A DNA stretch of 64,000 nucleotides from Melioribacteraceae bacterium (GTDB lineage: Bacteria > Bacteroidota > Ignavibacteria > Ignavibacteriales > Melioribacteraceae): contig CP129490.1 of assembly GCA_030584085.1 (NCBI GenBank), forward strand, positions 3,133,511 to 3,197,510, written 5' to 3'. Within the stretch, counting starts at the first letter, position 1. Each line of letters opens with the position of its first letter. The notes under the pieces are model-generated. The model had not been told where the DNA came from. It searched no databases and was given only the letters and a program-made list of their open reading frames with translations. Both the position numbers and the translations under genes were made by a program. Below are positions 9,053 through 25,709 of this stretch, piece after piece.

Positions 9053-10159
9053 ATGACAATCACAGAATTTCAAAATAAGTTTGGAATTATTGGCAAATCT
9101 CAAGAAATTAAAGATTTATCGGATATTGCGCTGCAAGTTGCACATTCTGACATATCAGTTTTAATTTACGGTGAATCGGGAACCGGTAAAGAAGTTTTTG
9201 CCAGAGCAATTCATGGTGCAAGTAATCGTTCCGACAAAAAATTGGTCAGTGTTAATTGCGGTGCAATTCCCGAAGGAATTTTAGAAAGTGAATTATTCGG
9301 TCACAAAAAAGGATCTTTCACAGGTGCAATAGATGATAGGAAAGGTTACTTCGAAATTGCCGATGGCGGTACATTATTCCTTGATGAAATTGGTGAAATG
9401 CCGTTAACAACTCAGGTAAAGTTACTTCGTGTTTTAGAGACTAAAGAATTTATGCGAATAGGAAGCGAAACGGTAACCAAAGTTGATGTTAGAATAATCG
9501 CAGCATCAAACAAAGATTTGCAAGATGAAGTTGCCGCAAAAAGATTTAGAAGTGATCTTTACTTTCGTTTGAAAGCAGTCATGTTGAGTATTCCCCCGCT
9601 TCGTAAAAGACCTTCGGACATTCCCGCTCTCATTGAACATTTTTTAGAAAATTATTCAACAGAAAATAAAATTACAAAACCACAATTAAGCAAAGAAGCA
9701 TGGGATTTACTATACAATTATAAATGGCCCGGGAATATCCGCGAACTCAAAAATGCAATTGAAACGGCAACTGCTCTATCGAGAGATTCTTATTTAACCG
9801 AAAAAGATTTTCTTCCTTTATTATCGTTGGGTGATTCTTCGGATCAAATAAAAAATTTACCCGTTCATTTAAACCGATCTCCTGAAGCATTAGATAGAGA
9901 AATGATTTATCGCGCATTGATCGAAATAAAAAAGGATTTGATTGAATTAAAAGATATTGCATTGAACAACCATTCCGAGATTCAAAACACCGGTAAAAAG
10001 TTTGAAGTCGATGAAGTAATTCCAATCGATAAACTTGAAAAACAAGCTATCGAAAATGCACTCGATTTTACAAGAGGAAATAAAAGAAAAGCTGCAAAAC
10101 TTTTGAATATTAGTGAACGTACACTTTACAGAAAATTAAAAGATTATGACATTCAATAG
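9053..10159 (+). CDS. Sigma-54-dependent transcriptional activator without receiver domain
   Basis: A 368-residue AAA+ enhancer-binding protein. The central domain starts almost at once: Walker A GESGTGKEVFARAIH (about 40-55), a GSFTGA loop (GAFTGA variant) that contacts sigma-54, Walker B GGTLFLDEIGEMP near 105, and the arginine-finger region around LYFRL. The C-terminus carries a Fis-type helix-turn-helix (NKRKAAKLLNISERTLYRKL). No response-regulator, GAF or PAS domain precedes the AAA+ core, so it is probably controlled by expression or partner binding. Its end overlaps lptE by 14 bases. No convincing -24/-12 promoter was seen in the window, so targets are unknown. Confidence 0.88.
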   Translation: MTITEFQNKFGIIGKSQEIKDLSDIALQVAHSDISVLIYGESGTGKEVFARAIHGASNRSDKKLVSVNCGAIPEGILESELFGHKKGSFTGAIDDRKGYFEIADGGTLFLDEIGEMPLTTQVKLLRVLETKEFMRIGSETVTKVDVRIIAASNKDLQDEVAAKRFRSDLYFRLKAVMLSIPPLRKRPSDIPALIEHFLENYSTENKITKPQLSKEAWDLLYNYKWPGNIRELKNAIETATALSRDSYLTEKDFLPLLSLGDSSDQIKNLPVHLNRSPEALDREMIYRALIEIKKDLIELKDIALNNHSEIQNTGKKFEVDEVIPIDKLEKQAIENALDFTRGNKRKAAKLLNISERTLYRKLKDYDIQ

Positions 10160-10670
10160 AAAGTTAGAAAGTATATTTATATTATTCATAATTGCTTTGG
10201 TATTAAGTGCGTGCAGTTATTCTTTTACCGGAGCCTCAATTCCTCAGCATCTTGAATCGATTGCCATTCCATTGTTTGATGATAGAAGCGGTTCGGGCGA
10301 ACCAAGTTTAAGAGAAGATTTCACAAATGAATTAATAACAAAATTTATTGATGATAACTCTTTACAAATTCGCGAAAGAGTTAATGCCGATGCAATTTTA
10401 GAAAGTACAATTCTCTCGCTTGTCGATGCCCCGTCATCAGTTGGAGCTCAAGAAGGTATTACCGCAGTAGAAACTAGAAGAGTCACATTAACTGTTAGAG
10501 TCATTTATAAAGATTTTATAATGAAAAAAACAATCTTTGAGCAAACTTTTTCAAATTATGCAGACTATGTAAACGAAGGTGACATTACAACCTTCAGAAA
10601 CGACGCTATTAAAACAGCAATAGATAAAATAACCGAAGATATACTGCTTGCGGTTGTATCTAATTGGTAA
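10146..10670 (+). CDS. lptE: LptE-family LPS-assembly lipoprotein
   Basis: A 174-residue lipoprotein with a signal peptide and lipobox LSAC (Cys near residue 23) followed by SYSFTGASIPQHLESIAIPLFDDRS, the family opening. The fold (two helices against a beta sheet) and ending IDKITEDILLAVVSNW match bacterial LptE, which plugs the LptD barrel and delivers LPS to the outer leaflet. The ATG lies inside the end of the sigma-54 activator gene, so translation is coupled. LptD is not in this window. Confidence 0.8.
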   Translation: MTFNRKLESIFILFIIALVLSACSYSFTGASIPQHLESIAIPLFDDRSGSGEPSLREDFTNELITKFIDDNSLQIRERVNADAILESTILSLVDAPSSVGAQEGITAVETRRVTLTVRVIYKDFIMKKTIFEQTFSNYADYVNEGDITTFRNDAIKTAIDKITEDILLAVVSNW

Positions 10671-10682
10671 AAAGGGATTAAC

Positions 10683-12158
10683 ATGAATTTCGATGAAATA
10701 GTTTTACTTACTTACATAGTATCGTTATCAATATTAATGATTTTCGCCAGTCACGGATTTATAATGGTCTATTATCAATCCAAGTACGGAAAAAATATTC
10801 CTAAAGAAAAAGCTGAAGAAGTCTTACACAAAACAGTTACAATTCAACTACCGCTTTATAATGAAATGTATGTTTCGGAAAGGTTAATTGACGCAGTCTG
10901 TGCAATTGATTTTCCCAAAGAACAAATGGAAATTCAAGTTCTTGATGATTCAACCGATCAAACAGTCGAAGTTGTTGCAAAAATAGTTGAGGAAAAACAA
11001 AAACTCGGGTTTAACATAAAACATATTCACAGAACTGACAGAAGCGGATACAAGGCCGGTGCACTGAAAGAAGGATTGAAATCTGTAACTGGTGAATATG
11101 TTGCAATTTTTGACGCCGACTTTATTCCCAAACCAGATTTTTTGAAAAATACTTTAAAGTTTTTTGCCGATGATAATGTGGGAATGGTTCAAACGCGATG
11201 GGAGCATCTAAACGAAGATTATTCCATGCTAACCAAAATACAAGCACTTGCGCTCGACGGACATTTTGTAATAGAACAAACCGTTAGAAACCGTGCTGGA
11301 TTCTTTATCAACTTTAACGGTACCGGAGGAGTTTGGAGATTAAGTTGTATTCTTGACGCAGGCAACTGGCATGCAGATACCTTAACCGAAGATCTTGATT
11401 TAAGCTACCGAGCACAATTAAAAGGCTGGAAGTTTATTTACCTGAGAGATTTTACCACTCCGGCTGAATTACCGGCCGAAATGAATGCTCTTAAAGCACA
11501 ACAGTTTAGATGGACAAAAGGCGCTATCGAAACAGCAAAGAAAATGTTACCCGAAGTCTGGAAATCAAAAATTCCAATGCGTGTTAAATTACAATCAACA
11601 TTTCATCTTACAAACAATATAGTATTCCCATTTATTTTGCTTGCCGGTATTTTGAATGTTCCGTTAATCTTTATTAAAAACAGCGGTCCGTACGATAACT
11701 TTTTTAACTTCATGTCGATATTTGTGATTGCATTTTTAAGTTCATTTGTGTTTTATCTTTTCGCACAGAAAAATGTTCATGAAGATTGGCGAAAGAAAAT
11801 TGCTCTCTTCCCTTTATTCATGGCGGGAAGTATGGGTTTTGCTGTAAATAATTCTCGCGCGGTTATGGAAGCTTTGATGAACAGAAAAAGTGAGTTTGTA
11901 CGAACACCGAAATTTAAAATTCAAAAAAAAGATGATTCCCTTGCGAAGAATCAATATTTTCTTAATATGAAAATTGAAAGCTCGGCTTATATCGAAATGA
12001 TTCTTGCAATCTATTGTTTGATCGGCGTTGTCGCATCAATTTACTTTATGGAAATTGCTGCACTTCCGTTTCAGTTAATGTTCTTCTTTGGATTTGCATC
12101 GGTATCTTATTTTTCTTTTAGAAACTCGTTTACAAAAAAATCAAAATCTGCAGCATGA
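10683..12158 (+). CDS. Family 2 glycosyltransferase, processive membrane type
   Basis: A 491-residue membrane glycosyltransferase. An N-terminal helix (about 8-28) precedes the GT-A domain with DDSTDQT, FDADFIP, TEDLDLSYR and QQFRWTKGA, the D, DxD, TED and Q(Q/R)xRW set of cellulose-synthase-like enzymes. Four or so C-terminal helices follow. The combination resembles bacterial ceramide/glucomannan-like GT2 proteins that build extracellular polysaccharide or glycolipid. Preceded by lptE (12 bases) and overlapping the TPR gene by 4 bases (ATGA), suggesting a joint envelope role. Confidence 0.85.
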   Translation: MNFDEIVLLTYIVSLSILMIFASHGFIMVYYQSKYGKNIPKEKAEEVLHKTVTIQLPLYNEMYVSERLIDAVCAIDFPKEQMEIQVLDDSTDQTVEVVAKIVEEKQKLGFNIKHIHRTDRSGYKAGALKEGLKSVTGEYVAIFDADFIPKPDFLKNTLKFFADDNVGMVQTRWEHLNEDYSMLTKIQALALDGHFVIEQTVRNRAGFFINFNGTGGVWRLSCILDAGNWHADTLTEDLDLSYRAQLKGWKFIYLRDFTTPAELPAEMNALKAQQFRWTKGAIETAKKMLPEVWKSKIPMRVKLQSTFHLTNNIVFPFILLAGILNVPLIFIKNSGPYDNFFNFMSIFVIAFLSSFVFYLFAQKNVHEDWRKKIALFPLFMAGSMGFAVNNSRAVMEALMNRKSEFVRTPKFKIQKKDDSLAKNQYFLNMKIESSAYIEMILAIYCLIGVVASIYFMEIAALPFQLMFFFGFASVSYFSFRNSFTKKSKSAA

Positions 12159-12763
12159 ATAAAGATTTAGCAAAAATAAAATTGATATATGAATTCAATC
12201 CTTCTTCTCCTCTTTTTGCGAGAGTAGCAGAAAGCGAATTAGAATCAGGTAACACTGATACTGCCATTCAAATGTTAGAAAGAGGAATGGAACTTTATCC
12301 CGATTATATAAGTGCTAAACTTGTTTATATCCAAGCGCTTGCAAAGAAAGGTGAATATAAAAAAGTAATTGATAAACTTGATGAGCTCAAACCAATTTTA
12401 AATGATGATTCCACAATTAATTATTATTTAGAAAAAATCGAGGAAGAGAAATCTAATATTCAGAACAACGAAGATGAAATTACTAGAATTAAAAAACCGT
12501 TAGAAGAAGATTTGGAAAACCTCGCCGAAACTATTAATAAAGCAAAAATTCCACCAATAGACAGTAACATAACCCCCAAAATTGATGAATCCGAACCACG
12601 GGGGAAGCAATTTGTATCCGAAACATTAGCCGGAATTTATTTAGCTCAATCAAGCTTCAAAGAAGCTCTCGATATATATGAGAAATTAATAGAGAGTAAT
12701 CCAGCCAAAACCGAATATTATGAAAGAAAAATAGAAGAAATAAAAAACATGATGAATAATTAA
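12155..12763 (+). CDS. Tetratricopeptide-repeat protein
   Basis: A 202-residue soluble protein without a signal peptide. TPR-like helices occupy residues 10-95 (LFARVAESELESGNTDTAI, MELYPDYISAKLVY) and 155-200 (LAGIYLAQSSFKEALDIYEKL, ESNPAKTEYYERKI), joined by an acidic, low-complexity linker. It overlaps the GT2 gene by 4 bases, so is probably made with it as a scaffold. Function not recognised beyond protein-protein interaction. Confidence 0.7.
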   Translation: MNKDLAKIKLIYEFNPSSPLFARVAESELESGNTDTAIQMLERGMELYPDYISAKLVYIQALAKKGEYKKVIDKLDELKPILNDDSTINYYLEKIEEEKSNIQNNEDEITRIKKPLEEDLENLAETINKAKIPPIDSNITPKIDESEPRGKQFVSETLAGIYLAQSSFKEALDIYEKLIESNPAKTEYYERKIEEIKNMMNN

Positions 12764-12779
12764 TTCATTTTCCTTTTGT

Positions 12780-13391
12780 ATGCAATTTGACCCTTCTAAA
12801 AAACTTACCAAGCAATTCTATCAAATCGATGCCGTAAAACTTGCTCCAAAGCTGTTGGGTAAACTTTTTTTTAGAAAAGTTGAATCTGAATATTTGATTG
12901 GGAAAATTGTAGAAGTTGAGGCTTATCGTGGTAGAGATGATGAAGCCGCTCACACCTTTAATGGTAAAACAATACGCAACGAAGTAATGTTCAAAGAAGG
13001 TGGTTATCTTTATGTTTATTTCACTTATGGAATGCATTTTTGTGCTAACGTAGTATGTGGTAAAGCAAGTGAAGGAGCAGCCGTTTTGATTAGAGGAGTT
13101 GAACCTTTGTTTGGTTTAGAAAAAATGAAGTTACATAGATTTGATGCAAGAGTGCTTTCTGACAAAGAAATCATAAACCTAACAAATGGTCCGGCTAAAT
13201 TTTGCAAAGCATTTTCAATTACAAAAAAAGAAAACGGAATCGATTTAACTTCATCAGAAATTTTTCTCTTAGATTCGGAAGATGTTTCAAAGAAAAATAT
13301 AATTGTCACCCAAAGAATCGGAATTAAGAAATCAGTTGAACTTCCTTGGCGTTTTTATATCAAAGATAATCCGTATGTTTCGAAGAAATGA
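12780..13391 (+). CDS. 3-methyladenine DNA glycosylase, AAG family
   Basis: A 203-residue homologue of alkyladenine DNA glycosylase (Mpg/AAG), which excises alkylated purines in base-excision repair. Visible motifs: IVEVEAYRGRDDEAAHTFNG with the catalytic glutamate (about 42) and water-coordinating residues, YVYFTYGMHFCANVV carrying the intercalating tyrosine region, and AAVLIRGVEPL. Length fits bacterial members. Stop overlaps the start of the GT9 gene (ATGA). Confidence 0.92.
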   Translation: MQFDPSKKLTKQFYQIDAVKLAPKLLGKLFFRKVESEYLIGKIVEVEAYRGRDDEAAHTFNGKTIRNEVMFKEGGYLYVYFTYGMHFCANVVCGKASEGAAVLIRGVEPLFGLEKMKLHRFDARVLSDKEIINLTNGPAKFCKAFSITKKENGIDLTSSEIFLLDSEDVSKKNIIVTQRIGIKKSVELPWRFYIKDNPYVSKK

Positions 13392-16215: not shown

Positions 16216-16556
16216 TATGTCCAAATTGTGAATGTGAATATGTTGATACAGTTACAACTTGTCCTGATTGCGGTGTTGAACTTGTTACTAAGGATGTATT
16301 CGAAGGACATCTTGTTCATCATTCGGATTGGCTTGTAGTTTATACAACTGATGAGATTTATAAAGCCGAAATGTATAAAGCCAACCTTGAAGGTGCCGAG
16401 ATTGATGCATTAATTCTAGGACAAAAGGATAGAAATTATCCAACCGTTGGTGATCTTTCCGTCATAAAAATTTTAGTAAAAAAATCCGATGCTGAAACTG
16501 CTATAGAAATTATTAATGATATTAATTCTCGAACAGACGAGAGTGAAGAAGAATAA
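16212..16556 (+). CDS. DUF2007 protein with N-terminal zinc ribbon
   Basis: A 114-residue cytosolic protein. CPNCECEYVDTVTTCPDCG at residues 3-21 is a two-knuckle zinc ribbon; residues 35-105 match the ferredoxin-like DUF2007 (putative signal transducing protein) pattern (LVVYTTDEIYKAEMYKANLEGA, ILVKKSDAETAIEII). It is locked between the CPBP protease and cdsA by overlaps of 4 and 1 bases, so the three are one translationally coupled unit. Function unknown. Confidence 0.78.
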   Translation: MICPNCECEYVDTVTTCPDCGVELVTKDVFEGHLVHHSDWLVVYTTDEIYKAEMYKANLEGAEIDALILGQKDRNYPTVGDLSVIKILVKKSDAETAIEIINDINSRTDESEEE

Positions 16557-17383
16557 TGTCGGGTAACAAAACCGGAACAAGAATAATTGTCTCAGTTGCT
16601 GCTATTCCATTTATCGGCCTAGCTGCCTATTTCGGTGGAATACTATTTCTGATTTTTGTTTTGGGAATTGCCCTTATTTCTTTTTTTGAATTTTCAATTT
16701 TAGTCAAAAGCAAAGGTACAAATCCAAATTTAATTTTTGGATTAACTTCGGTCGTGTTAATTTTATTGAATGTCTATTTTGATTGGCTTGATTTTTACAT
16801 TCTCATCCTTTTGATTTCATTTATTTTATTGATAGTCGAATTATATAGAGATAATAATTCTGCAATATTAAATTTAGGAAGTACATTTCTCGGCATTTTT
16901 TACATTGGAGTATTTTCCGCTTCTTTATTAAGCATTAGAGAGTTGTTTAATTTTTCAAATCAATTATATGAACAAGGTGGATTGTTAATCATTGCTTTGT
17001 TTGTAACTATCTGGATTTGTGATTCAGCTGCTTTTTTTCTTGGAACTGCATTCGGTAAACACAAACTTTTCCCGCGAGTGAGTCCTAAGAAAAGTTGGGA
17101 AGGTGCAATTGCCGGATTTATTTTTTCAATTCTCACAATGATAGCGGCTCACTTCATACTTTTGGATTTCCTCTCACTTGTTGATTCATTTATAATCGGT
17201 ACAATTGTTGGAACAGTTGGACAAATTGGGGATCTAATTGAAAGTCTGATTAAACGAGATGCGAACGTGAAAGATTCTTCGGCTTTAATACCAGGTCACG
17301 GCGGTGTATTTGATAGATTCGATTCTCTTTTATTCAGCGCACCGGCAGTTTATGTTTACCTTATTTATACAATGCAGTTATAA
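16556..17383 (+). CDS. cdsA: Phosphatidate cytidylyltransferase
   Basis: A 275-residue membrane enzyme that makes CDP-diacylglycerol from CTP and phosphatidate, the entry step to phospholipids. About eight helices are visible. The family signatures are clear: SPKKSWEGAIAGF near residue 178 and the C-terminal CDS signature with GDLIESLIKRDANVKDSS then PGHGGVFDRFDS (about 222-260). Length normal. Last gene of the CPBP-DUF2007-cdsA unit. Confidence 0.95.
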   Translation: MSGNKTGTRIIVSVAAIPFIGLAAYFGGILFLIFVLGIALISFFEFSILVKSKGTNPNLIFGLTSVVLILLNVYFDWLDFYILILLISFILLIVELYRDNNSAILNLGSTFLGIFYIGVFSASLLSIRELFNFSNQLYEQGGLLIIALFVTIWICDSAAFFLGTAFGKHKLFPRVSPKKSWEGAIAGFIFSILTMIAAHFILLDFLSLVDSFIIGTIVGTVGQIGDLIESLIKRDANVKDSSALIPGHGGVFDRFDSLLFSAPAVYVYLIYTMQL

Positions 17384-20038: not shown

Positions 20039-21007
20039 ATGATATTAACTGTTACACCAAATCCGCTGCTTGAACGAAGATTGATATTCAATTCAATTAC
20101 GCAAGGTGCAATTAACCGAAGTCAAAAAGAAATACTTTATGCCGGCGGTAAAGGTATCAACGTTAGTCGGCAGCTAAACAGACTTGGAATTAAAAATCTT
20201 GCACTTACATTCCTCGGTGGTAACAACGGTAAATTATTACGAAGAGCTTTAGAGACCGAACAAATCAATTTTAATGCGGTAAGTACTAAAGACGAAACTC
20301 GATACGCTGCTGTTACTATTTATAATGAGAAAAAAGAACTGACCTCATATTTTTCACCCAATTCAGAAATAAGTGAACGTGAAGTTGATGAGTTTATTAA
20401 CAAATTAGATAAGGCAATTCAAAATTGTTCCATTGTTTTATTTGCCGGAAGTTCACCGAACAATTCAACCAATCGAATTTTTATTGAAGGAATTGAACTT
20501 TCAAATAAGTACGATAAAATTTCCATTGTGGACACTTATGGTGAGCATTTGCCAGAATGTATAGACTTATCCCCTTTTGCAATTCATAATAATAAAAGAG
20601 AAATTGAATCTTCGTTAGATGTTAATCTTCATGATGAAAAAGCAATAATGGAATTTCTAGACTCACTTTATGCAAAGAATGTAAAGATGGCATTTATAAC
20701 TGACGGTGAAAAGGATGTGTATTCCTCAAAATTCGATTTTCATTTCAAAACGACCCCGCCTAAAGTAAATGCAATTAATTCTATGGGAAGTGGTGACGCA
20801 TTTGTAGCCGGAATAATTTATGGTATAGAACAAGCTTTGGTTTATAATGATTTTATGAAGCTAGCCGTTGCACTCGGTGCACTTAATACAGAAAGTTTTG
20901 AAGCCGCGAATGTTGAGTCGGCAAAAGCCAAAGAACTAGCAGAAATTATAAGTATTGAACCGGTCGGCAAGAAAATGAAATTGATAGATGATTCACCAAA
21001 CTATTAA
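20039..21007 (+). CDS. PfkB-family hexose-phosphate kinase (1-phosphofructokinase-like)
   Basis: A 322-residue sugar kinase. Visible PfkB signatures: GGKGINVSRQLNRLG near residue 37 and NSMGSGDAFVAGIIYG near 243, with the catalytic aspartate in GSGDA. The opening ILTVTPNPLLERRL matches the 1-phosphofructokinase/tagatose-6-phosphate kinase branch (TVTPNPALD in relatives). The exact phosphosugar substrate cannot be told. Its last 20 bases overlap the start of the BamA/TamA-like gene. Confidence 0.85.
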   Translation: MILTVTPNPLLERRLIFNSITQGAINRSQKEILYAGGKGINVSRQLNRLGIKNLALTFLGGNNGKLLRRALETEQINFNAVSTKDETRYAAVTIYNEKKELTSYFSPNSEISEREVDEFINKLDKAIQNCSIVLFAGSSPNNSTNRIFIEGIELSNKYDKISIVDTYGEHLPECIDLSPFAIHNNKREIESSLDVNLHDEKAIMEFLDSLYAKNVKMAFITDGEKDVYSSKFDFHFKTTPPKVNAINSMGSGDAFVAGIIYGIEQALVYNDFMKLAVALGALNTESFEAANVESAKAKELAEIISIEPVGKKMKLIDDSPNY

Positions 21008-22742
21008 ATATGCTTCAATATTTCTTCTTGTAATACTCACTCTTCAATCACAACCTGTTGGTTCTATAGAAATTTCCGGCAATCAGAAATTCCCTTCATC
21101 AGAATATTTAAGCTGGATTTCAATCAATAGCGGCACACCTAATTTTGTGGGAATTGTTGATACAATCACTTCTAGAATCTTCTCCAATCTTAATGACAGA
21201 GGCTACTTCTCTTCAGAAATTACAAAAATTGATTCCGCGATTAATTCCGATTCTTCACTCACTTATAAAATTGAAATCGATGAAGGAAATCCCTCTTATT
21301 TCAGCAAGTTTGAGATTTCAAATCTGAGCGTTCACGATTCATTAATTTTTTATTCAGAACTAGATTTCTTGATTGGCGAAATTTTTAATAAGACAGAATT
21401 TGAATCAGCCATTTCAAATATACTTGATGAATACGAAAACATTGGTTTTCCCTTCGCAAAAATTGTAATCAATTCAATAACCTTTTCTGAAATTGAAGAT
21501 GAAAGTCAAGTCAAAGTAAAGTTAACTTTTGAAAAGAATGAGAAAAGTACAATCGACAAGGTAGAAATAATTGGGAATGATAAAACCAATAATCAAGTAA
21601 TACTTCGTGCAGCAAGAATTTTTCCGCCGGAATTATACTCACAAGATAAAGTTGAATCAATTCCGAAGAAGTTAAATAGACTTAGATTTTTTGAACAAGT
21701 CAATACACCGGGCTATTATTTTAACAGCAGCAATGAAGGAGTTCTGCAAATTACAGTTCAGGAAAAAGAGACGAATAATTTTGACGGAATTGTAGGATTC
21801 GTTCCAGGTAATGAAAATGAAACCGGATACTTCACCGGGTTTCTAAATATTAGTTTAAGAAATTTATTCGGAACCGGGAGAGCCGCTGCATTTAAATGGC
21901 ATAAAGAAAATCGGAATTCTCAAGAACTCGAAATTAAATATATGGAACCGTGGATTCTGGGCTATCCATTTAATATTGGTCTGGGATTTTTTCAACGAAA
22001 GCAAGATACAACTTATGTCCAAAGCAAGTTTGATGGATCAATAGAATTTTTAGCCACGGATGATATCTCCGCAAGTTTACTTTTTTCAACCGAATCAATT
22101 GTTCCGACCGAAAATAAGAATTCATTTTTTACTGTTTATAATGCAAGCATACTTTCCACAGGTATTCAGCTTTCAATCGATAGCAGAGATGATGTTTATG
22201 CTCCAACCGAGGGAATATATTTTGTCAATTCATATTTATACAGTAAAAAATCAATTAACGGTCCGGCACAGTTTATCACCAGTGATACAAAGACCGAAAT
22301 AAACTTGCAGCGGTTAACATTAGATTTTTCTTATTTCTATGAAATATTTAACAGACAAGTTATTGCCGCCGGAGTTCATGCACGAGAAATGCGAGGTGAT
22401 TTTTTTGAAATAAGCGACTATTACATGCTCGGCGGAACTACAACATTAAGAGGTTATCGCGAAAATCAATTTCTCGGGAATCGAACTTTTTGGTCGAACT
22501 TGGAATATAGATATTTACTCACGCCTCGCACTTATGCGTATTTATTTTTCGATACTGGTTATTATTTAAGAAATGCAGATGAGTCACGAGATCTAATTGA
22601 ACTTTCCGAATTTAAATACGGATATGGACTTGGATTAAATTTAGAAACCGGTTTAGGAATTTTAGGTGTAAGCTTTGCGCTCGGTGAAGGTGATTCATTT
22701 AGTCAAGGAAAAATCCATTTTGCAATAGTGAATGAGTTTTAA
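20988..22742 (+). CDS. BamA/TamA-family outer-membrane protein
   Basis: A 584-residue Omp85-superfamily protein. A signal peptide (about 1-22) precedes two to three POTRA-like repeats up to about residue 250 (GSIEISGNQKFPSSEYLSW, TIDKVEIIGNDKTNNQVIL). A 16-strand barrel region follows, with the conserved MLGGTTTLRGYRENQFLGN (the (V/I)RG(F/Y) lid-lock) near 490. It is shorter than housekeeping BamA (five POTRAs), closer to TamA/FhaC-like members, so probably not the essential BamA. The ATG lies inside the kinase gene. It ends head-to-head against the minus-strand reductase stop. Confidence 0.82.
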   Translation: MIHQTIKYASIFLLVILTLQSQPVGSIEISGNQKFPSSEYLSWISINSGTPNFVGIVDTITSRIFSNLNDRGYFSSEITKIDSAINSDSSLTYKIEIDEGNPSYFSKFEISNLSVHDSLIFYSELDFLIGEIFNKTEFESAISNILDEYENIGFPFAKIVINSITFSEIEDESQVKVKLTFEKNEKSTIDKVEIIGNDKTNNQVILRAARIFPPELYSQDKVESIPKKLNRLRFFEQVNTPGYYFNSSNEGVLQITVQEKETNNFDGIVGFVPGNENETGYFTGFLNISLRNLFGTGRAAAFKWHKENRNSQELEIKYMEPWILGYPFNIGLGFFQRKQDTTYVQSKFDGSIEFLATDDISASLLFSTESIVPTENKNSFFTVYNASILSTGIQLSIDSRDDVYAPTEGIYFVNSYLYSKKSINGPAQFITSDTKTEINLQRLTLDFSYFYEIFNRQVIAAGVHAREMRGDFFEISDYYMLGGTTTLRGYRENQFLGNRTFWSNLEYRYLLTPRTYAYLFFDTGYYLRNADESRDLIELSEFKYGYGLGLNLETGLGILGVSFALGEGDSFSQGKIHFAIVNEF

Positions 22743-23918
22743 TTACACTACATAGACTTTTGCCACATCAATTATTAATGATGGTTTTTTTGCTAAGGCA
22801 GTTACAAAAAATTTGCCTAGAGTTCTTTTTTCTTTTGGTATTCTTAATAACTTTTCGATTATATCGTTAAACTCTTCATCCGATAAATTAAAAATTCCTT
22901 CTTTCAATCGATCAAAAATTAAGTGTGATTTCCCTCTTTCTTTCATCCATTTATCACGGTACTTATCTATTAATTTTAAATTATTACTTTTGATCGCTTT
23001 CCCTGCAATTTCGCCGGCAACTTTACCGCCAATCATTCCGCTTCCAATTCCTCCTCCGGTAAGCGGATTAACTTGACGTGCCGCATCTCCGACAAGCATT
23101 ATTCCATCACCTGAAATTCTTTCTAATGTTAATGCACACGGCACACCTCCGGCAACTTGTGTTAATACAGATGCATTGGGATAAAACCGTTCCATATTTT
23201 CGTTCAGGTAAGAAAGTGCAGATCGTTTCTTTCCTGTATCACCGCTCACACCCAATCCGATATTTGCAGTCTTATCACCTTTTGGGAAAACCCAAAAATA
23301 TCCGCCCGGTGCATAATTGGAACCGAGGTAAAAATAAAGTGTATGTGAATCAACATTATTAATATTTGTTGCAGTAACTTGAAAGCAAGCTTCCATTTCT
23401 CGAAAATCAATATGAGTTTTGATTCCCGCCCATCTTCCGACTCTAGATTCAACTCCATCAGCTCCGATAACTATTTTTGATCTAATCTCAATTTGTTCAC
23501 CTTGATATTCAGCCTTAACTCCACAAACTTTTTCGCCTTCAAGGATTAATCCGTTTACATAAACTCTGGTTTGTATGTGAGCCCCGGCTTCGGTTGCAAG
23601 TTTTCCAAGTTCATAGTCAAAAATTCTTCGTTCTAATACGTAACCGTTCTCTTCATCAAATTCTATTACAACTTCTTTTCCATTCGGAGAAATAAACGCG
23701 TACTTATTTATTTTGGCGGCAATCCATTTATCGTTTGGTTCTATAAACTGCACTACATTTCTTTTCGAAATAGCTTCGGCGCATCTGACGGGATAACCAA
23801 CATCTCTATCTTTTTCGAGAACGAGTACATCGACTCCTTGCATGGCGGCATATCTCGCAGCAACAGTTCCGGCAGGACCAGCACCAACAACAATTATATC
23901 GTATTCTTTCTTTAACAT
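22743..23918 (-). CDS. Geranylgeranyl reductase family flavoprotein
   Basis: A 391-residue FAD-dependent oxidoreductase. The FAD-binding motif VVGAGPAGTVAARYAA (about 10-25), VLEKDRDVGYPVRCAEAIS, the GGYFWVFPKGDKTANIGLGV segment and GDAARQVNPLTGGGIGSGM (about 275-293) are typical of the geranylgeranyl reductase (GGR/ChlP) family. Such enzymes hydrogenate prenyl chains of archaeal lipids, chlorophyll or menaquinone. It lies 9 bases after a 2[4Fe-4S] ferredoxin gene, its likely electron donor, and is divergent from a UbiA prenyltransferase resembling DGGGP synthase. A role in ether-lipid or quinone side-chain saturation is inferred. Confidence 0.87.
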   Translation of the reverse strand: MLKKEYDIIVVGAGPAGTVAARYAAMQGVDVLVLEKDRDVGYPVRCAEAISKRNVVQFIEPNDKWIAAKINKYAFISPNGKEVVIEFDEENGYVLERRIFDYELGKLATEAGAHIQTRVYVNGLILEGEKVCGVKAEYQGEQIEIRSKIVIGADGVESRVGRWAGIKTHIDFREMEACFQVTATNINNVDSHTLYFYLGSNYAPGGYFWVFPKGDKTANIGLGVSGDTGKKRSALSYLNENMERFYPNASVLTQVAGGVPCALTLERISGDGIMLVGDAARQVNPLTGGGIGSGMIGGKVAGEIAGKAIKSNNLKLIDKYRDKWMKERGKSHLIFDRLKEGIFNLSDEEFNDIIEKLLRIPKEKRTLGKFFVTALAKKPSLIIDVAKVYVV

Positions 23919-23927
23919 AGTATCCTT

Positions 23928-24149
23928 TTACTTCAGAAATCCTTCTTTATTAAATTTGATTACTTCAATCGGACAAGCCCAAATACACTTTGAACAATTT
24001 GTGCAATTCTCATCTATTATTCTTATTTCGGCTTCTTTCAATTCGATTGCATCATCAGGGCAGACGCCAACACAACACCCACAGAAATCGCATTTGTTAG
24101 GAAGGATTTCTATCATCAATTTAGCGCCGGTTTTTGCAATTCGATACAT
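23928..24149 (-). CDS. 2[4Fe-4S] ferredoxin
   Basis: A 73-residue protein with two complete cluster motifs: CDFCGCCVGVCP and CTNCSKCIWACP. It should carry two low-potential [4Fe-4S] clusters. Encoded directly before the geranylgeranyl reductase with a 9-base gap, it is probably that enzyme's reductant supply. The alternative start at the internal Met 12 (LMIEILPNKC) would still keep both motifs. Confidence 0.9.
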   Translation of the reverse strand: MYRIAKTGAKLMIEILPNKCDFCGCCVGVCPDDAIELKEAEIRIIDENCTNCSKCIWACPIEVIKFNKEGFLK

Positions 24150-24182
24150 CGTTGCCTTTCTTTAAATAAGATAATTAATGCG

Positions 24183-24213
24183 AAAATATATAATTATTTA
24201 TTACTTTAACAAA
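24183..24213 (-). promoter_or_regulatory. Promoter of the ferredoxin-reductase unit
   Basis: Read on the minus strand: TTTG (24213-24210), 19-base spacer, TATATTTT (24190-24183), one mismatch from TAnnTTTG. It sits about 35 bases upstream of the ferredoxin ATG at 24149. Confidence 0.45.
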
Positions 24214-24222
24214 CATTGATCT

Positions 24223-24230
24223 TATCTTTG
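24223..24230 (+). promoter_or_regulatory. -7 element (TATCTTTG) for the UbiA prenyltransferase gene
   Basis: An exact TAnnTTTG match 22 bases before the ATG at 24253. A clear TTTG -33 box is missing (only TTTA at 24197-24200). It lies back-to-back with the ferredoxin promoter, so the two units could be co-regulated. Confidence 0.35.
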
Positions 24231-24252
24231 TAACAATATTATAGCATAATTA

Positions 24253-25086
24253 ATGAAATTGATAGCAATTATAAAAATTCTTCGCCCCATAAACCTAATA
24301 ATTACTTTTTTGTCGGTTATTATCTCGGCTGTAATTTCTGCTTCATTTGATTCTTTATCATTAATTGTAATTCTAACAGCTCTCTCAGTTACATTTTCAT
24401 TTGCCGCAGGTAATGTGATAAATGATGTAATAGATTTCGAAATTGATAAAATTAATCGTCCCGAACGTGTTCTCCCGCTTGGATTGATGTCACTAAAATC
24501 CGCCAAAGGATTATACTTTATAACCGTTGGAATTTCATTACTACTTTCAGCTTTAGTAGCCGTAGAGATATTAGTTATTATGATTTTCCTCAACTTATTA
24601 TTATTACTTTATTCAACAAATCTGAAGAGAATAATTTTACTTAGTAATTTTGTTGTCGCATTTGCGACTGCTTTCCCTCTAGTTCTTGGTGGAATTGTAG
24701 TTGAGAATTTTTTCGGCGGATTAATACCTGCCGGTTTTGCATTTTTTACTAATTTCATAAGAGAAATAATAAAAGACTCCGAAGACATAAAAGGTGACAG
24801 CATAATCGGTGTTAAAACTTTTCCGCAACAATTTGGATTGGATTTTTCGGTTGCATTAATAATCTCATTAATAATACTATTAATTGTAATTGATATGCTT
24901 CCATTTTTTTACAGAATTTATTCTGCTGAATATTTTGTATTAATAACCATTTTGGTTAATCCGCTGTTTGTCTTTGTAATAAAACTACTGTATAACAACA
25001 AGGAATTGGCAACATTAAGACGAGCAAGTAACCTTATTAAGATTAATATGATGCTTGGGTTACTTGCGATTTTAATCGGGGCATAA
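24253..25086 (+). CDS. UbiA-family prenyltransferase, DGGGP-synthase-like
   Basis: A 277-residue membrane enzyme with seven to nine helices. The first Asp-rich motif is NDVIDFEIDKINRPERVLP (about 57-75) and the second IREIIKDSEDIKGDSIIGVKT (about 169-188). The wording of both is closest to archaeal-type geranylgeranylglycerol-phosphate geranylgeranyltransferase rather than MenA or UbiA, which have different spacing and partners. If so it would make a di-geranylgeranyl ether lipid precursor. The opposite-facing geranylgeranyl reductase supports a prenyl-lipid pathway. Exact substrate is inference. The stop overlaps the rnhB start by 1 base. Confidence 0.78.
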   Translation: MKLIAIIKILRPINLIITFLSVIISAVISASFDSLSLIVILTALSVTFSFAAGNVINDVIDFEIDKINRPERVLPLGLMSLKSAKGLYFITVGISLLLSALVAVEILVIMIFLNLLLLLYSTNLKRIILLSNFVVAFATAFPLVLGGIVVENFFGGLIPAGFAFFTNFIREIIKDSEDIKGDSIIGVKTFPQQFGLDFSVALIISLIILLIVIDMLPFFYRIYSAEYFVLITILVNPLFVFVIKLLYNNKELATLRRASNLIKINMMLGLLAILIGA

Positions 25087-25709
25087 TGAAAGACTTTGAT
25101 AATAAATTTTATTCTGAACAGGTCAAGATAATCTGCGGTGTTGATGAAGCGGGTCGAGGACCGCTCGCGGGTCCTGTTGTTGCTGCAGCGGTTATATTTG
25201 GAAACGGGAAAATCATACCGGGAATAAATGATTCCAAAAAACTAGATGAAAAAACCCGCGAAAGGCTTTTTACTGAAATTGTTGCAAATGCCGTTTCATT
25301 TGGAATCGGAATTGTCGACCACACAAAAATTGACGAAATAAACATCTTAAACGCTTCCCTTCTCGCAATGAAAATTGCAGTTGAAAAATTAGAGATAGAG
25401 CCTCATCTTATTTTGATTGACGGCAACAAAACATTCCCTTCTAGTGTTCAGACACGAGCCATTGTAAAAGGCGATTCGAAATCGTATTCAATTGCGGCGG
25501 CTTCAATTTTAGCAAAGGTTACACGCGATAGAATAATGAAGAAAGAAGCAGAAAAATTTCCACATTACTCATGGCACACAAATAAAGGTTATCCGACAAA
25601 AGCACATATAAAAGCAATTCAAAAATATGGTGCTTGTTCGCTTCATCGTAAAACATTTTTAACACGGATATTATCAAAAGAAGAGCAATTAGTTTTAGTT
25701 GAGAATTAA
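25086..25709 (+). CDS. rnhB: Ribonuclease HII
   Basis: A 207-residue endonuclease that removes RNA from RNA-DNA hybrids, including single ribonucleotides. It shows CGVDEAGRGPLAGPVVAAAV (residues 13-32) with the first catalytic Asp-Glu, a second aspartate in LILIDGN, and GDSKSYSIAAASILAKVTRD with the last aspartates. Length is normal. It lies between the UbiA gene (1-base overlap) and yraN (2-base gap). Confidence 0.96.
   Translation: MKDFDNKFYSEQVKIICGVDEAGRGPLAGPVVAAAVIFGNGKIIPGINDSKKLDEKTRERLFTEIVANAVSFGIGIVDHTKIDEINILNASLLAMKIAVEKLEIEPHLILIDGNKTFPSSVQTRAIVKGDSKSYSIAAASILAKVTRDRIMKKEAEKFPHYSWHTNKGYPTKAHIKAIQKYGACSLHRKTFLTRILSKEEQLVLVEN

Follow-up and report, generated by a model that had tools for sequence, protein, structure and literature searches.

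The window analysed here, a stretch of 64,000 nucleotides (G000:C1:3133511-3197510; G, C, L and f mark genomes, contigs, loci and families in our numbering), comes from the 3.74 Mb, one-contig genome of a Melioribacteraceae bacterium. Melioribacter belongs to the Ignavibacteria, in the FCB group of the NCBI taxonomy. Three genes of the window encode a UbiA-family prenyltransferase (UbiA-1), a 2[4Fe-4S] ferredoxin and a geranylgeranyl reductase (GGR). In our view they quite probably make up the later half of a bacterial ether-lipid pathway of archaeal type, in which UbiA-1 would act as a digeranylgeranylglyceryl phosphate (DGGGP) synthase (DGGGPS). In three Poribacteria, related genes form the row DGGGPS, ferredoxin, GGR and geranylgeranylglyceryl phosphate synthase (GGGPS), with what is probably selenocysteine in place of the redox cysteine of GGR. 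Some bacterial archaeal-lipid reductases are very probably selenoproteins. Together with the cysteine form in Ignavibacteria, Kryptonium and other lineages, they would point to a bacterial pathway for saturated archaeal-type lipids that is under active selection and driven by ferredoxin.

The divergent locus and the proposed pathway

The main features of the locus are as follows.

24253-25086, plus strand: UbiA-1, DGGGP-synthase-like prenyltransferase; open reading frame of 277 amino acids; Pfam UbiA 121.5 bits
24150-24252, no strand: divergent intergenic region between the ferredoxin gene and UbiA-1; 103 bases between start codons
23928-24149, minus strand: 2[4Fe-4S] ferredoxin, upstream gene of the ferredoxin-GGR pair; 73 amino acids; Pfam Fer4 40.9 bits
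22743-23918, minus strand: GGR, archaeal type; 391 amino acids; Pfam GGR_cat 86 bits; FAD domain, Cys46

The ferredoxin gene lies 9 bases upstream of GGR. The initial annotation, made from the letters of the window, had located the UbiA and GGR genes correctly, and open reading frames were found there. Both motifs that it had read in the UbiA protein, NDVIDFEIDKINRPERVLP and IREIIKDSEDIKGDS, are present in the UbiA-1 translation. Its ferredoxin and GGR flavoprotein on the opposite strand were borne out by the Pfam scores listed above, and so was the gap of 103 bases between the divergent starts. The back-to-back promoters proposed for this gap found no support. When 22600-25200 was scanned for sigma-70 promoters, 11 sites were obtained, compared with 9.8 in shuffled sequence, and the gap itself held one site on the minus strand and none on the plus strand.

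Genes, families, motifs, co-occurrence and gene order were computed; from them we infer the enzyme activities and substrates, the role of CdsA, the ferredoxin as donor, the glycerol stereochemistry, the acyl lipids and the presence of an ether lipid. In the proposed pathway, GGGPS, encoded elsewhere in the genome, would join geranylgeranyl diphosphate to glycerol phosphate. UbiA-1 would add a second geranylgeranyl chain, CdsA would activate the product, and GGR would saturate the chains with electrons from its own ferredoxin. The membrane would be mixed, because the cell presumably makes acyl-ester lipids as well.

UbiA-1 as a DGGGP synthase

The sequence evidence supports UbiA-1 as a DGGGP-synthase-like protein and not a quinone enzyme. 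Its best match among PDB sequences was 6m31, Digeranylgeranylglyceryl phosphate synthase (1.1e-32; next match 2.1e-06). A fold search with an AlphaFold2 model built on 17 class sequences (pLDDT 93) gave the same best match (E 9.1e-13, 32 percent identity), with the next protein at 2.7e-06. UbiA-1 has the UbiA fold. Its NDxxDxxxD and its second Asp motif are both invariant in all 17 aligned class sequences. When these sequences, the window's included, were aligned with the M. jannaschii DGGGPS, 25 columns were invariant, including N57, D58, D61 and D65 and R170, E171, K174, D178 and D182.

The genome encodes five UbiA paralogues: UbiA-1, a second protein named UbiA-2, MenA (330.4 bits, cut-off 264), a protein like decaprenyl-phosphate phosphoribosyltransferase (DPPR-like; 262.3 bits, cut-off 234) and a CyoE-like protein just below its cut-off (199.6 against 210.3). 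A role of UbiA-1 as MenA was rejected: the 20 families listed for it include no model of MenA, and the genome has a separate MenA. Since this MenA is above its cut-off, quinone prenylation is served by its own enzyme.

Two trees were built from rows picked by similarity to UbiA-1; 21 and then 16 rows were dropped owing to time and long branches. In the quick tree (90 of 111 rows), UbiA-1 was placed among 58 rows that form a bacterial clade (SH-aLRT 93); this clade adjoined 19 rows (87) that were all archaeal except L210. UbiA-2, MenA, ChlG, CyoE and the DPPR-like protein lay outside the bacterial and archaeal DGGGPS group (92). In the careful tree (74 rows), the bacterial clade of UbiA-1 comprised 48 rows (95/84). 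A constraint that held bacterial and archaeal DGGGPS together was not rejected (p-AU 0.589), and its lnL was 3.8 higher than that of the free tree, with weak deep nodes. The bacterial clade includes two Cloacimonadota rows, and the UbiA gene of one of them (L235) adjoins GGGPS. The initial annotation had called for such a placement: UbiA-1 stands with bacterial DGGGPS-like proteins and outside MenA, and its union with archaeal DGGGPS is weak at the deep nodes. The exception L210, from a contig binned as Clostridia, groups with Methanobrevibacter and is possibly misbinned.

GGR and its ferredoxin

The GGR of the window scored 231.9 bits with TIGR02032 (GG-red-SF subfamily; cut-off 158.8) and was the sole match in the genome above the family cut-off. 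Its best PDB match was 3oz2, digeranylgeranylglycerophospholipid reductase (7.3e-65). The active-site cysteine is C46, and the motifs YFWVFPKGDKTANIGLG and GGG are present. The GGR of M. acetivorans reportedly works with its ferredoxin. The archaeal GGRs studied carry Cys47 (SaGGR) or Cys45 (TaGGR), YxWxFPx7-8GxG and GGG; a Streptomyces GGR has REG, and the GGRs of photosynthetic organisms have GEG (PMC6309074). The window protein carries the archaeal-type GGG and YxWxFPx7-8GxG, and neither REG nor GEG. Archaeal GGRs conserve Cys47, and catalysis in S. acidocaldarius requires it (PMC10821996); the active-site cysteine has been described as a redox modulator (PMC6309074).

From the GGR matches in the 53 positive class genomes, the best 30 were compared. 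A two-cluster ferredoxin was encoded upstream of GGR in 30/30 loci, within 200 bases in 28 of them and at 475 and 904 bases in the others. The cysteine was kept in all 30, and the exact YxWxFPx7-8GxG and GGG patterns were present in 28, the exceptions being GLA in L079 and GAG in L076. Outside the class, a ferredoxin lay upstream of GGR in 16/16 loci of strong matches and in 0/14 loci of weak ones. The ferredoxin is probably the electron donor of GGR. The data suggest that the ferredoxin-GGR pair is a fixed part of the pathway, which adds to the published FCB pathway, and that these lipids are meant for saturation.

GGGPS and distribution in the class

The initial annotation had asked whether the genome holds a GGGP synthase, and one was present at G000:C1:2855085-2855843 (L017:7086-7844, plus strand). 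It scored 209.7 bits with TIGR01769 (cut-off 161.55), and its closest PDB protein was 4jej, geranylgeranylglyceryl phosphate synthase.

Among 119 genomes drawn evenly from the class, UbiA-1 was found in 57, GGR in 53 and GGGPS in 52. The UbiA-1 count includes four weak genomes of family f6 (G004, G015, G035, G054) and is 53 without those. All three genes occurred in 48 genomes and none in 60. For GGR and GGGPS, both were present in 50 genomes, GGR alone in 3, GGGPS alone in 2 and neither in 64. Nine families were positive, eleven were wholly negative, and f6 had weak rows only. The window's own family (f1) was mixed, with all three genes in 7 of 13 genomes. Fisher p values for co-occurrence ranged from 3e-23 to 2e-28, with relatedness ignored.

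The gene that precedes UbiA-1 in the class, for a BamA-like protein, was searched in 16 genomes, of which G060 and G073 carry UbiA-1 and the other 14 are module-negative. In 8 of these 14, rnhB comes after the BamA-like gene and no UbiA-1 separates the two, which is a clean absence. In the remaining six, rnhB lay outside the flank or the BamA-like gene was not found. GGGPS, UbiA-1 and GGR thus tend to be present or absent together across the class. Their joint loss argues for a working pathway over a relic.

The gene row in Poribacteria

UbiA loci outside the class were found with the UbiA alignment, and the best 80 of 564 confirmed ones were inspected. GGGPS lay near UbiA, within the flanks, in 11 of them: eight Poribacteria, Cloacimonetes TCS62 and two archaea. 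In three Poribacteria (L206, at 9989-13091; L211; L216) the order was UbiA, ferredoxin, GGR, GGGPS. According to PMC7852524, co-localization of GGGPS and DGGGPS in bacteria seems restricted to Ca. Cloacimonetes. No GGR match was found in four other Poribacteria genomes searched (L218, L223, L226, L236; G143-G146), where UbiA and GGGPS are close. It is possible that these four make an unsaturated lipid, use another reductase or have lost the gene. A strong GGR match (163-433 bits) was found in 16 of 32 genomes outside the class that carry DGGGPS.

A probable selenocysteine reductase

The GGR frame of the three Poribacteria with the full row has 397 codons and a single stop, a TGA at codon 46. 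This codon and the selenocysteine genes lie at the following positions.

L206:11225; L211:11415; L216:11963: in-frame TGA of GGR, at the active-site Cys codon
L290:7917-11502 (G140:C1:47917-51502): tRNA-Sec, selB and selA, adjacent to one another; genome of L206, a single chromosome

The TGA context is PVR*AEG, and other GGRs read PVRC(A/G)E. Cysteine occupies this site in 13 of the 16 strong loci outside the class, and the remaining three are the Poribacteria TGA genes. From its sequence, the Poribacteria GGR with TGA at codon 46 is most likely a selenocysteine reductase. The three proteins are 77-88 percent identical. Both before and after the TGA, dN was 0.07-0.17 and dS was above 1.4 or saturated (not computable). 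This indicates that both flanks of the TGA are under purifying selection, and a pseudogene was therefore rejected. TGA as an ordinary sense codon was also rejected, with TGA ending 3/14, 2/14 and 8/16 long open reading frames in the three loci.

The TGA is followed, ten bases on, by the start of a hairpin whose loop lies 19 nt downstream. All 27 of 27 cells were paired, with two compensated pairs, in three sequences only; 54 of 500 shuffles equalled this, and the fold z was -0.7 to -2.5. The hairpin of L206 had no Rfam match. The sel genes were examined in one Poribacteria genome, that of L206, which encodes tRNA-Sec (76.6 bits, cut-off 47), selB (370.7, cut-off 242.25) and selA (601.1, cut-off 267.9). 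No tRNAs were found in eight Poribacteria loci of 20 kb. SelA and SelB have been reported in the majority of sponge-symbiont bins from various phyla, and Poribacteria are not named in the part available to us (PMC5649159).

Neither the four-gene row nor a selenocysteine or selenoprotein GGR was found described in the literature searched, which was partly judged by title. If true, the selenocysteine GGR would be a selenoprotein family not found described, and a probe of the role of the active-site cysteine.

Weighing the evidence

Several points weigh against an ether-lipid pathway. The ether lipid and its enzymes are predicted here from genes alone. UbiA-1 was under the NCBIfam equivalog cut-offs for DGGGPS (PRK12882, 141.4 against 296; PRK12883, 119.3 against 353) and under that of the 'prenyltransferase' model PRK12884 (177.9 against 269), which UbiA-2 passed (273.5). 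The PRK12882 cut-off was also missed, at 240.7, by a Poribacteria UbiA in a row with GGGPS. GGR was below the archaeal equivalog cut-offs (250.8 against 780 and 187.5 against 580). The careful tree had weak deep nodes, and its archaeal rows formed no clade and had ChlG among them. GGGPS lies about 302 kb from UbiA-1. Eleven of the 119 class genomes have just one or two of GGGPS, UbiA-1 and GGR, and the Fisher values overstate independence because the pattern mostly follows family. Of the 32 DGGGPS-bearing genomes outside the class, 6 had no GGR match and 10 had weak matches only (68-131 bits), none with an adjoining ferredoxin in the inspected loci. No convincing glycerol-1-phosphate (G1P) dehydrogenase or AraM was found in the genome in a search with PF13685 only.

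The UbiA and GGR superfamilies are broad, and GGRs also reduce side chains of chlorophyll, tocopherol, dolichol and menaquinone (PMC6309074). With the equivalog cut-offs unmet, UbiA-1 and GGR might act on another isoprenoid, such as menaquinone, a polyprenol, a carotenoid or a pigment, and be linked to GGGPS only indirectly. We consider this unlikely: the genome has separate MenA, CyoE-like and DPPR-like paralogues, GGR scored 88.8 bits with MenJ and 67.7 with ChlP against 250.8 with the best archaeal model, and GGGPS, UbiA-1 and GGR co-occur and form a single row in three Poribacteria. Still less probable is a silent or relic pathway, or one whose end product is a minor glycerol mono-ether of the Bacillus kind. 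The 11 partial sets would fit it, and no Ignavibacteria ether lipid was found by title among the papers listed, a weak test for most of these, which do not mention Melioribacter. Against it, the genes are open frames, the Asp motifs of UbiA and the cysteine and motifs of GGR are kept as described above, and relatives lose the set as a whole. It is very improbable that UbiA-2 (L004) is the DGGGP synthase of the genome instead of UbiA-1, even with its pass on PRK12884 and its higher PRK12882 score (167 against 141.4). Its orthologues (at least 49 percent identity) occur in 12 of the 119 genomes, 9 of them with GGGPS, and 43 GGGPS genomes have no UbiA-2. It also lies outside the bacterial DGGGPS-like clade in the trees and, by eye, is without the R and K of the R-E-x-x-K common to UbiA-1 and the M. 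jannaschii DGGGPS. UbiA-2 was rejected as DGGGPS for its narrow spread and the absent motif residues, despite the higher score on one model. In the region L020:6274-13504 (G000:C1:1392273-1399503), the UbiA-2 gene follows an arsenic-resistance-like set named by eye (ArsR, permease, ACR3, thioredoxins, CcdA, ArsC); in the loci of 11 relatives no arsenic genes were found within the flanks examined.

The backbone of an archaeal-like lipid could also be sn-glycerol-3-phosphate (G3P) instead of G1P, which would be a variant of the archaeal-type pathway and no alternative to it. It is proposed because no convincing G1P dehydrogenase was found with PF13685, and we hold it to be a tentative possibility. 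The initial annotation had suggested looking for this enzyme, and the two PF13685 matches of the genome were rejected as such, being an iron alcohol dehydrogenase and AroB. Among module-bearing genomes of the class, PF13685 matches reached 57.6 bits at most, and the two matches above 74 bits were both in f6 genomes without GGGPS, one of them at 77 bits in G004. For Cloacimonetes the same gap is reported, and their GGGPS used G3P as well (PMC7852524). Against this variant, engineered E. coli that carried neither araM nor egsA still produced G1P lipids, by a route to G1P that is unknown (PMC7852524; PMC13400652); a bacterial G1P source of unknown nature therefore exists.

Overall, the archaeal-lipid interpretation of the initial annotation is supported by GGGPS in the genome, a UbiA protein outside MenA and the co-occurrence of GGGPS, UbiA and GGR in the class. 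Of the three outcomes that had been set beforehand as speaking against it, two, a genome with no GGGPS and a UbiA protein within the MenA clade, did not occur; the third concerns lipids made of acyl esters only.

Neighbouring genes

The following genes of the window flank the locus or lie upstream of it.

16556-17383, plus strand: cdsA (name from the initial annotation); open reading frame of 275 amino acids; putative maker of the CDP-activated intermediate
20988-22742, plus strand: BamA-like outer-membrane protein (named by eye); conserved across the class on the upstream side of UbiA-1; outside the pathway
25086-25709, plus strand: rnhB (named by eye); conserved across the class on the downstream side of UbiA-1; outside the pathway

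The rnhB start is overlapped by the UbiA-1 stop by 1 base (25086). Within 24312-25191, 4 terminator-like sites were found, where shuffles gave 1.5; each is on the plus strand, inside UbiA-1 or the rnhB start. An Rfam scan of the window gave nothing beyond one tRNA.

The divergent arrangement of UbiA and the ferredoxin-GGR pair holds in the window, in a congener (L158) and in two loci of the same family (L159, L161); in most other families of the class, the UbiA-1 and GGR genes are further apart. A span of no more than about 12 kb takes in cdsA, the BamA-like gene, the ferredoxin-GGR pair and UbiA-1 in five genomes of f4 and f18 (G082, G002, G043, G062, G096), so the loose cluster from cdsA to UbiA-1 in the window is shared. 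In the remaining f4 and f18 members, these genes are further apart or on separate contigs. An open reading frame does lie where the initial annotation put cdsA, and its single match in its own genome is itself; the gene name is that of the annotation. A cdsA match was found in 116 of the 119 class genomes. It is therefore a general gene, and cdsA was rejected as a module-specific member.

Comparison with known systems

The lipid divide has long been a classic problem. In the parts of the literature consulted, we met no cultured bacterium shown to make saturated archaeal diethers. A named strain of Melioribacter roseus, P3M-2, would allow the prediction to be checked, provided that the set is present in its genome.

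UbiA-1 resembles the M. jannaschii DGGGP synthase (6m31; 7bpu) in fold, in both Asp-rich motifs and in the RE-x-x-K of motif 2. The two share 32 percent identity in the fold alignment. The GGR shares with archaeal GGRs (3oz2; 3atq) the FAD domain, the active-site cysteine, the YxWxFP and GGG motifs and a ferredoxin partner; it differs in its bacterial host and, in three Poribacteria, in TGA as the cysteine codon. Pairs of cysteine and selenocysteine homologues are known among bacterial selenoproteins. The Poribacteria GGR is like them in TGA for the redox cysteine, a candidate hairpin downstream and the selA, selB and tRNA-Sec genes of the L206 genome, and no selenocysteine GGR is among the described pairs in the literature searched.

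The closest system is the FCB pathway of Ca. Cloacimonetes (Villanueva et al. 2020, PMC7852524), in which GGGPS and DGGGPS expressed in E. coli gave an unsaturated archaeol lipid. It is alike in GGGPS, a DGGGPS of the same clade, GGR and the failure to find a G1P dehydrogenase. In the genome studied here, GGGPS is not beside UbiA-1, and the ferredoxin-GGR pair is. Class-wide co-occurrence and the Poribacteria row were not met in the part of that account available to us. The window alone is a further member of this published pathway, and what is new beyond it is the fixed ferredoxin-GGR pair and, probably, the selenocysteine form in Poribacteria.

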